This document shows, one piece after another, positions 20,459 to 21,830 of a stretch of DNA of 26,989 bases. The stretch's first letter is position 1; each line of letters starts with the position of its first letter. Both the position numbers and the translations under genes were made by a program. Below the pieces are notes generated by a model. That model saw nothing but the letters and a program-made list of their open reading frames with translations. It did not search any database and was not told where the DNA came from. This stretch comes from a virus: the IMG/VR virus record IMGVR_UViG_3300027736_000210, positions 1-26,989 of that record; one strand, written 5' to 3'.

Positions 20459-20487
20459 ATTATAGCAAATGTTGATTTATTGGTCAA
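20459..20487 (-). promoter_or_regulatory. sigma70 promoter A (AAA+ gene)
   Basis: Minus strand: TTGACC (20487..20482), 17-nt spacer ending TTTGC, then TATAAT (20464..20459), an extended -10. It is followed by a leader of about 40 nt with AAGGAG before the ATG at 20412. Confidence 0.85.
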
Positions 20488-20493
20488 GTACAC

Positions 20494-20510
20494 AAAAAGT
20501 ATTACTTTTT
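20494..20510. repeat. palindrome A, centred 15 bp beyond the -35 of promoter A
   Basis: AAAAAGTA-T-TACTTTTT, with 8-bp arms around one base. It contains the TAA stop of the 73-aa gene at its centre. It may be an operator, or a weak AU hairpin terminator. Two more copies lie at 20785-20801 and 21090-21104 in the same geometry. Confidence 0.8.
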
Positions 20511-20723
20511 AGCGATTTCATCAACTTTTTGGCTGTATTCCAAGCGGCTCAGCACCAGTTGGTACATGCAATATACCAAAAGTGTAATACTTCCTACTGA
20601 CAGTATATTAGAGATGTCATCTGCGGTTAAACCTGTTAACAAAAGTTGTACACCAACTGATACGGTACAAATCACAGCAAGGATTCCTGCTGTCTGTAAT
20701 GCGGCTTTGAGTTTTAGATTCAT
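20502..20723 (-). CDS. small two-helix membrane protein (73 aa)
   Basis: A 73-aa protein with two hydrophobic segments (about 8-30, ALQTAGILAVICTVSVGVQL; and about 40-58, ILSVGSITLLVYCMYQLVL) separated by a short polar loop (TADDISN), and a charged C-terminal tail. This hairpin layout suits an inner-membrane protein. It has its own strong sigma70 promoter (B) and AAAGGA before the ATG, so it is probably an early gene. A holin-like role cannot be excluded, but early expression argues for host-membrane modification instead. Function unknown. Confidence 0.75.
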   Translation of the reverse strand: MNLKLKAALQTAGILAVICTVSVGVQLLLTGLTADDISNILSVGSITLLVYCMYQLVLSRLEYSQKVDEIAKK

Positions 20724-20749
20724 ATATTCCTTTGTTTCTTTATGTGTAT

Positions 20750-20778
20750 ATTATAGCAAAAGGGCAATTATTTGTCAA
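20750..20778 (-). promoter_or_regulatory. sigma70 promoter B (73-aa membrane gene)
   Basis: Minus strand: perfect TTGACA (20778..20773), 17-nt spacer ending TTTTGC, and perfect TATAAT (20755..20750), an extended -10. Leader of about 20 nt with AAAGGA. Confidence 0.9.
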
Positions 20779-20784
20779 TTACAG

Positions 20785-20801
20785 CAAAAGTATTACTTTT
20801 G
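20785..20801. repeat. palindrome B, centred 15 bp beyond the -35 of promoter B
   Basis: CAAAAGTA-T-TACTTTTG, with 8-bp arms. Its centre coincides with the stop codon of the 76-aa gene. Same spacing to the promoter as palindromes A and C. Confidence 0.8.
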
Positions 20802-21023
20802 GAAATCAACCAAACGCTTGACAAGAATACCGTGTTCGGCATCCATTTCCTCATGGCTGAGATAGAAGTCTGTAGTAGGGTCATAATAGCGACCTTCTCG
20901 GGGATCGTAATATAACACCCGTCCTGATGCGTATTTGAATGGGCCTTCAAGCCCGGCACGTGGGCCATACTTTTGGCGCATCATGTCTGTTTCAAACTTG
21001 TCTGCGATAATGCGGTATCCCAT
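20793..21023 (-). CDS. conserved small phage protein (76 aa)
   Basis: A 76-aa soluble protein (MGYRIIADKFETDMMRQKYG) with a Tyr/Arg/Asp-rich middle (YYDPREGRYYDPTTDFYLSH). No known motif. It has its own sigma70 promoter (C) and AAGGAG 6 nt before the ATG, so it is probably a strongly expressed early gene. Its stop codon forms the centre of palindrome B. Function unknown. Confidence 0.7.
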   Translation of the reverse strand: MGYRIIADKFETDMMRQKYGPRAGLEGPFKYASGRVLYYDPREGRYYDPTTDFYLSHEEMDAEHGILVKRLVDFQK

Positions 21024-21053
21024 GTAGGACTCCTTTTTGCTTTGTATGCCACT

Positions 21054-21082
21054 ATTGTAGCAAAAAGGGAATTCGTGGTCAA
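21054..21082 (-). promoter_or_regulatory. sigma70 promoter C (76-aa gene)
   Basis: Minus strand: TTGACC (21082..21077), 17-nt spacer ending TTTTGC, and TACAAT (21059..21054). Its leader carries AAGGAG. Confidence 0.8.
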
Positions 21083-21089
21083 GTACTAC

Positions 21090-21104
21090 AAAAGTACTAC
21101 TTTT
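21090..21104. repeat. palindrome C, centred 15 bp beyond the -35 of promoter C
   Basis: AAAAGTA-C-TACTTTT, with 7-bp arms around one base, abutting the stop codon of the glycosyltransferase gene (21105). Same geometry as A and B. Confidence 0.8.
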
Positions 21105-21830
21105 TTACTGCCACAATTGTTGTATTACAGGGTCATGCACTTGGGCAGGTTTGGGGTTGCCGTGGAACACAACCACTGAGGTATCGGGCTGTATTTTAAC
21201 ACCGCTGTTGGGTCTAAGGTGTCGGCGTCGAGCAAAATCATATCCGCCATCTAGGCATTGCCAACGAAAACTTTCAAAACGAAAGTCGTCTGCAAAACGT
21301 CTTTGGTTGACATTCAGCACCGCGCCCAGGTAATCCTGATCTCCAGGATAACTTTTGATTATGGTTTTAAAATCTTCTTGTGAGAACTTGTCCCATATCC
21401 AAGAGAACTTGCTGACATTAAACCACATCATGCTAGAGTTCATTGTAACCGTGTCTCTGCGTTGTAGATATCTAAAATCTCTAATGGTCCAAAGATAGTC
21501 GGTGCTGAGTTCACCTACCCAGTCAAGTTGATTTGCAATCACTACATCCAGATCAAAGTACAACAAGTTGCCCGAAAAATGAGCAGGATTAAACAACTGC
21601 ATCTTGTACCACCATGATCGTTTGGGACCTGAAATGCCCCAATCTTCAAGTATGTGTTTGATCATGTGTGGTGGAACTGATCTATCATGTTCGGTGTATA
21701 CGTGCAAGCGCACTTCTGCGTCCAGGTTTCGACACAGCATATTATACAGTCTTTCTACATATTGCCAGTCATAGCCCGATCCGTGTATAACGCAGGCACA
21801 GTCAATGCGTCCAGGATTCTTTTTTGACAT
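21105..21830 (-). CDS. GT-A-type glycosyltransferase (241 aa)
   Basis: A 241-aa protein with the layout of GT-A sugar transferases: an N-terminal strand-helix (CACVIHGSGYDWQYVERLYN), VYTEHD, and the DxD metal/nucleotide-sugar motif D93-L-D95 (LLYFDLDVVIAN), then SSMMWFN and a PGDQDYL acidic element. The acceptor is unknown; sugars on virion proteins, DNA bases or host surface glycans are possible. Its ATG overlaps the stop of the upstream methyltransferase (TAATG), so the two are probably made together. Its stop abuts palindrome C. Confidence 0.8.
   Translation of the reverse strand: MSKKNPGRIDCACVIHGSGYDWQYVERLYNMLCRNLDAEVRLHVYTEHDRSVPPHMIKHILEDWGISGPKRSWWYKMQLFNPAHFSGNLLYFDLDVVIANQLDWVGELSTDYLWTIRDFRYLQRRDTVTMNSSMMWFNVSKFSWIWDKFSQEDFKTIIKSYPGDQDYLGAVLNVNQRRFADDFRFESFRWQCLDGGYDFARRRHLRPNSGVKIQPDTSVVVFHGNPKPAQVHDPVIQQLWQ

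Follow-up and report, generated by a model that had tools for sequence, protein, structure and literature searches.

Helically phased GTAnTAC dyads upstream of sigma70-type promoters as candidate operators in large uncultivated phages

Three promoter cassettes in a 27-kb virus record

What is the role of a short palindrome that recurs, at a fixed distance upstream of a sigma70-type promoter, at three successive gene junctions of a virus genome? The stretch of DNA analysed here (the window) is a virus record of 26,989 nt, in which the sequence AAAAGTAnTACTTTT is found as exact copies on the minus strand at the three palindrome positions listed in Table 1. A fourth copy with two or fewer mismatches is absent from the 27-kb record, the sole further site having three mismatches. 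Downstream of each copy come 7 nt and then TTGACC, TTGACA or TTGACC (cassettes A, B and C, respectively), a 17-nt spacer, and TATAAT, TATAAT or TACAAT. All three promoters conform to a sigma70-like TTGACc-17-TAyAAT arrangement and match the consensus at 11/12 (A), 12/12 (B) and 10/12 (C) positions. The genes run head to tail on the minus strand from a glycosyltransferase gene through the genes for a 76-aa protein (gene C) and a 73-aa protein (gene B) to an AAA+ ATPase-like gene, with one cassette at each of the three junctions.

Table 1. Coordinates of genes and cassette elements in the window
Feature	Position	Strand	Remarks
AAA+ ATPase-like gene, 340 aa	19390..20412	-	served by promoter A; phrog_1250, weakly matching a DnaC-like helicase loader
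Cassette A promoter, TTGACC-17-TATAAT	20459..20487	-	reads into ATPase gene
Cassette A spacer, TGTGTAC	20488..20494	-	degenerate second dyad adjoining the -35, judged from the spacer consensus
Cassette A palindrome, AAAAGTAATACTTTT	20495..20509	-	dyad GTAATAC at 20499-20505, centre near -50
73-aa small protein, probably membrane (gene B)	20502..20723	-	served by promoter B; stop codon in palindrome A
Cassette B promoter, TTGACA-17-TATAAT	20750..20778	-	reads into 73-aa gene
Cassette B spacer, GCTGTAA	20779..20785	-	position of decayed second dyad
Cassette B palindrome, AAAAGTAATACTTTT	20786..20800	-	dyad at 20790-20796
76-aa small protein (gene C)	20793..21023	-	phrog_13298; served by promoter C; stop codon in palindrome B
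Cassette C promoter, TTGACC-17-TACAAT	21054..21082	-	reads into 76-aa gene
Cassette C spacer, GTAGTAC	21083..21089	-	contains part of the tandem pair
Cassette C palindrome	21090..21104	-	contains part of the tandem pair
Cassette C tandem pair, GTAGTACTTTTGTAGTAC, complete	21083..21100	-	two dyads 11 bp apart, adjoining the -35
Glycosyltransferase gene	21105..21830	-	phrog_1962; stop codon adjoins palindrome C

The three cassettes had been reported in a preliminary description of the locus, and their coordinates were confirmed by the positions on the minus strand, as was the distance of 15 bp from palindrome centre to -35. The placing of the stop codons given there was also correct, in that the TAA of the 73-aa gene (20502-20504) and that of the 76-aa gene (20793-20795) lie at the palindrome centres of cassettes A and B, and the glycosyltransferase TAA (21105-21107) adjoins the palindrome of cassette C. 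The repeat is real, but the 15-bp palindrome is incomplete as a unit: in the 7-nt spacer of cassette C the dyad recurs at a distance of 11 bp, which the preliminary description had missed. Cassette C accordingly carries a perfect pair, and cassettes A and B each have one good dyad and one that has decayed.

Some additional features of the locus were recorded. Both the 17-bp promoter spacer (AATAATTCCC...TTTTGC) and the leader CATACAAAGCAAAAAGGAGCC before the ATG recur between unrelated genes, in the three window promoters (Table 1) and at related loci, and promoter and leader therefore seem to have been copied as a block. The 76-aa protein matches the OCRE domain at the Pfam threshold; this domain is otherwise known from eukaryotic RNA-processing proteins. 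A relative of the ATPase in Pseudomonas phage PA5oct (L440:2486-3640) is annotated 'thioredoxin', which is probably a misannotation.

GTAnTAC dyads, their phasing and their occurrence in related phages

Across related phages in IMG/VR the unit proves to be a dyad of 7 bp, GTAnTAC, which mostly occurs as tandem pairs repeating every 11 bp (GTAnTACTnnAGTAnTAC). Six related contigs, each 130-225 kb long (0.99 Mb in total), were read whole, with promoters defined as TTGACn-17-TAyAmT. At distances of up to 57 bp upstream of 156 such promoters, 86 GTAnTAC dyads were counted, against 2.6 expected from background. The six contigs had originally been found via the palindrome; when every promoter matching the selecting pattern was dropped, 39 dyads were counted against 1.8 expected, a 21.7-fold excess, with a Rayleigh vector R of 0.79. 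The enrichment is specific, GTAnTAC being the single outlier among the 64 odd heptamer palindromes, the best populated of the others (TTTnAAA) reaching 11 against 4.3 expected (2.6-fold).

Gaps between the -35 and the nearest dyad, taken over clusters at 60% identity, were 0 or 1 bp in nine cases, 7 in two, 10-12 in ten, 20-22 in two, 31-34 in five and 42 in two, with single values of 60 and 65. At a period of 10.7 bp these nearest-dyad gaps give an R of 0.79, for which the Rayleigh p-value is too small, the clusters being partly related by descent. The dyad centres fall near -39, -50, -61, -72 and -82, and the spacing from dyad to dyad is 11 bp in 17 of 23 pairs in the six contigs. As judged from the proximal gaps and from R, the sites keep to whole helical turns measured from the -35; less weight falls on the 31-36 bp class, part of which may mirror a common terminator length. 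A further scan, which required only AGTAnTACT, a free gap of 0-30 bp and a promoter, showed the phase peaks recurring in other contigs among the matches listed; gaps of 2-6, 14-17, 25-26 and 28-29 bp were without a dyad among these matches (252 clusters, part of which were selected near gap 11). Since the phages are related, formal p-values are too small generally, and the pattern of peaks and troughs is the firmer evidence.

The spacing within the original cassette was assessed by an IMG/VR pattern scan in which the gap between palindrome and -35 was left free at 4-14, yielding 102 stretches. Among 90 distinct instances in the loci fetched, the gap was 7 in 68, 6 in 11 and 4 in 5; with so many at exactly 7 despite the range allowed, the spacing is not due to chance. 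The 7-nt spacer is itself conserved in these instances, its commonest form being GTAGTAC, i.e. the second dyad copy at 11 bp from the first. Orthologous genes, moreover, have dyads in different registers that remain in phase, at 11, 11, 11/22, 22, 23 and 42 for gene B and at 0/11, 10, 11, 11/22, 21, 22 and 34 for gene C, and the linkers within pairs vary (TCAA, TTGA, TAGA, TTTT). A codirectional promoter with at least 10 consensus matches lies downstream of 50 of the 51 modules in the six contigs and the window, the exception being inside a gene. Position, phasing, specificity, promoter association and the spread over many unrelated downstream genes are in this sense direct readings from sequence comparison. 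The suggestion in the preliminary description of an operator at about -51 is thus retained as regards the operator, but not as regards a single palindrome at that position, sites being present also at one to four turns upstream and often as pairs. Among promoters of the same set that are without dyads, AAACGG directly preceding TTGACC is about 10-fold enriched, and may be an alternative upstream element.

The carriers of GTAnTAC modules are uncultivated large phages, mostly from lakes. The extent of the operator, as first described, was accordingly widened to other large phages and to sites before many unrelated genes: 172 protein families are represented among the first three ORFs downstream of module-bearing promoters, and this spread, like the exchange of upstream DNA at the ATPase promoter, places many module copies beside exchangeable small genes. 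A second sample was picked by protein, as relatives of the ATPase. Inspection by eye revealed a sigma70-type promoter at all of these loci that have enough upstream DNA, while the DNA upstream of it varies between the 73-aa gene with the palindrome, other genes, and a GC-rich terminator. In many relatives a different gene precedes the ATPase promoter, the boundary of the swap lying a few bases before the -35. Counted as distinct upstream contexts, those bearing a dyad are 6 of 22 for the ATPase, 6 of 6 for gene B and 14 of 26 for gene C. Loss of the palindrome from promoters that are themselves kept, which had been set beforehand as the observation that would tell against the proposal, was consequently found at the ATPase promoter (16 of 22 contexts without it) but not at gene B, where all six contexts keep the dyad. 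On these contexts the module is optional at the ATPase promoter.

The operator model and its alternatives

On balance, the GTAnTAC dyads are probably operators for a regulator that contacts RNA polymerase and most likely activates transcription. The recognised unit would be GTAnTAC, preferably as two dyads 11 bp apart on one helix face (GTAnTACTnnAGTAnTAC), and the binder a putative sequence-specific, probably cooperative dimeric protein. Dyads placed whole turns away from a strong sigma70-type promoter's -35 would hold such a protein on the polymerase face, on the side of the helix shared with the alpha C-terminal domain of RNA polymerase and sigma region 4, and its most likely effect would be to activate a selected set of early-type promoters that precede small accessory genes. 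That sites can stand in for one another at whole-turn offsets, with linkers unrelated in sequence but equal in length, points to polymerase contact from one helical face, as for class I/II activators, and the whole-turn geometry fits such contact. The existence of the binding protein and the 'early' timing of the promoters are what we infer from this pattern, and activation is the probable outcome rather than repression. Some observations run the other way: the promoters are near consensus, for which an activator should be unneeded; the module is missing upstream of many orthologous ATPase promoters in the sequences compared; and no candidate regulator was recognised in the 11 contigs searched, which may be incomplete.

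The preliminary description had offered a duplicated regulatory module serving either as a protein-binding operator or as a combined weak terminator and promoter. Phasing, specificity and the lack of pairing covariation favour the operator over an RNA hairpin, and the terminator was not borne out. Under the latter reading, which resembles the promoter-early stem-loops (PeSLs) of other phages, the palindrome would be a weak stem-loop ending the upstream transcript before the next promoter, as might be expected from the stop codon of the upstream gene lying in or beside it, from long forms that fold as a hairpin at about -6 kcal/mol, and from the joining of early promoter and stem-loop in PeSLs (as cited in PMC4503421). 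The 16-nt short form, however, folds at only -1.3 kcal/mol with a 3-nt loop at best, against -12.4 kcal/mol for a genuine terminator from a relative. Nor do the central bases of paired dyads (n1/n2, commonly A/G, A/C or G/G) covary, being Watson-Crick in 25 of 70 non-redundant tandem pairs when 22.1 are expected if independent (permutation p 0.21). At about a dozen loci, GC-rich true terminators sit between the dyad pair and the promoter, and a stem-loop would leave the phasing to the -35 without a reason. An intrinsic terminator or RNA hairpin, with a stable stem, a T-run and covarying pairs, was therefore rejected, and the PeSL-like reading is most improbable.

A repressor presents a more serious alternative, although an unlikely one: a phage or host protein bound beside the -35 could shut the promoters, as a delayed shut-off or a block to superinfection. 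Promoters with 10-12 of 12 consensus matches would need turning off rather than on, and the gap-0 class directly adjoins the -35, but a steric repressor is not expected to show strict phasing as far out as about -72 and -82, with terminators in between, and no repressor gene was recognised with the RHH_1, HTH_3 and Arc models in 11 contigs. It is very unlikely that the dyads are instead an UP element or curved DNA, that is, A/T tracts in AT-rich DNA, phased at 11 bp and either bound by the alpha C-terminal domain or intrinsically bent. Dyad positions do coincide with the alpha-CTD subsites, and UP elements have A/T-rich DNA from -40 to -60, with good matches among T4 early promoters (PMC2988021); the signal, however, belongs to GTAnTAC, G and C included, and not to A/T palindromes such as TTTnAAA, the linkers vary, and the sites reach about -82. 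Similarly small is the probability of a shuffled repeat devoid of regulatory meaning, copied by recombination as a block with promoter and small gene. The repetition of promoter and leader sequence, and the exchange of ATPase-upstream DNA with its junction shortly before the -35, are what such shuffling would produce, yet it leaves unexplained both the in-phase registers with unrelated linkers of equal length and the retention of the dyad in all six gene B contexts.

Comparison with known systems and search for the regulator

PeSLs are reportedly a feature of T4-type phages, in work attributed to Arbiol in 2010 and Comeau in 2014. As described in papers that cite this work, they resemble the GTAnTAC cassettes in being small intergenic repeats that carry a sigma70-type promoter and are found among small accessory genes, at gene-exchange boundaries; unlike their stem-loop terminator, the second element here is a phased DNA operator without pairing covariation. 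The cassette resembles PeSLs in genome role, but is not filed as one, because the stem-loop feature was looked for and not found. T4 early and MotA-dependent middle promoters likewise combine a sigma70-type promoter with an upstream element at -40 to -60 (UP) or an activator site (MotA box), whereas GTAnTAC is sequence-specific and is found at several registers that are in phase. In MotA-dependent promoters the box, at -30, takes the place of the -35 contact (PMC2988021). The promoters studied here, by contrast, keep an intact -35, with the dyads upstream; nor are the dyads the A/T tracts without G/C specificity of an UP element, GTAnTAC alone being strongly enriched among the 64 heptamers.

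CRP sites are centred near -41.5, -61.5, -71.5 and -82.5. The dyads resemble CRP/FNR class I/II sites in that palindromes are confined to positions whole helical turns away from the -35 on its upstream side, but sequence and half-site geometry differ, and the likeness concerns spacing, not a CRP-family protein. Arc half-sites are 11 bp apart, and Arc/MetJ ribbon-helix-helix operators share with the present ones short pseudo-palindromic subsites about one turn apart; here, unlike in those systems, no Arc or RHH_1 protein was found in 11 related contigs of uncertain completeness. The Xanthomonadales LexA box, TTAGTAGTAATACTACTAA, has the core AGTAATACT in common with the sites described here, and differs in its flanks and in the tandem 11-bp arrangement. 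The kind of element, a multi-copy phage operator beside promoters, is already known; its sequence, spacing rule and phage group appear to be new in the literature searched. What is gained is a concrete regulatory code (site, spacing rule and controlled gene set) obtained from sequence alone for large uncultivated phages. If the dyads recruit an activator, accessory phage genes would have regulated and not merely strong promoters, pointing to a new DNA-binding protein.

If a host protein were used, the GTAnTAC site would provide a handle for host assignment. No full cassette architecture was seen by eye among 76 stretches from a scan of 84,980 bacterial species genomes, and the 18-bp pair was present in one genome of 369 sampled Gammaproteobacteria, against three for the reversed control, although the host may lie outside this sample; a host factor is for these reasons not favoured. 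A host-wide promoter element was also rejected, most of the 76 stretches being Bacteroidales sites, which are probably unrelated because on the reverse strand they read as a Bacteroidetes-type promoter (TTTG ... TAnnTTTG). Host assignment from a paper on bS21-encoding phages was rejected too, as that paper concerns Bacteroidetes phages. The 77-nt cassette gave only short partial matches against 50,697 phage records, and the 18-bp site was not found in the isolated distant relatives PA5oct, Atu_ph07 and Vibrio phage D506.

It is tentatively proposed, as a rather doubtful extension, that the regulator is phage-encoded and possibly virion-delivered, belongs to a family not yet known to bind DNA, and uses the phased GTAnTAC sites to activate those promoters that are expressed first in a clade of large freshwater phages. 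Were this true, it would add a dedicated activator layer to early promoters, where phages are thought to use host polymerase alone. The RHH_1 (PF01402), HTH_3 and Arc (PF03869) models gave no match in the 11 related contigs, and no recognised transcription-factor family was seen in about thirty small proteins that are either conserved or linked to modules. One protein conserved in several module-bearing contigs (L297:17299-17757) matches WYL_2, an Sm-like SH3 barrel; WYL domains are often found in regulators, making this protein a weak candidate. Another, similarly conserved (L296:17719-18069), reaches the threshold for a SWIM zinc finger. Ribosomal protein bS21 and an IF-1-like translation initiation factor are encoded by a related contig, G004 (L295:15269-15493 and L297:17765-17983), together with ClpP, ClpS, Hsp20 and IscA/ErpA-like proteins recognised by eye.
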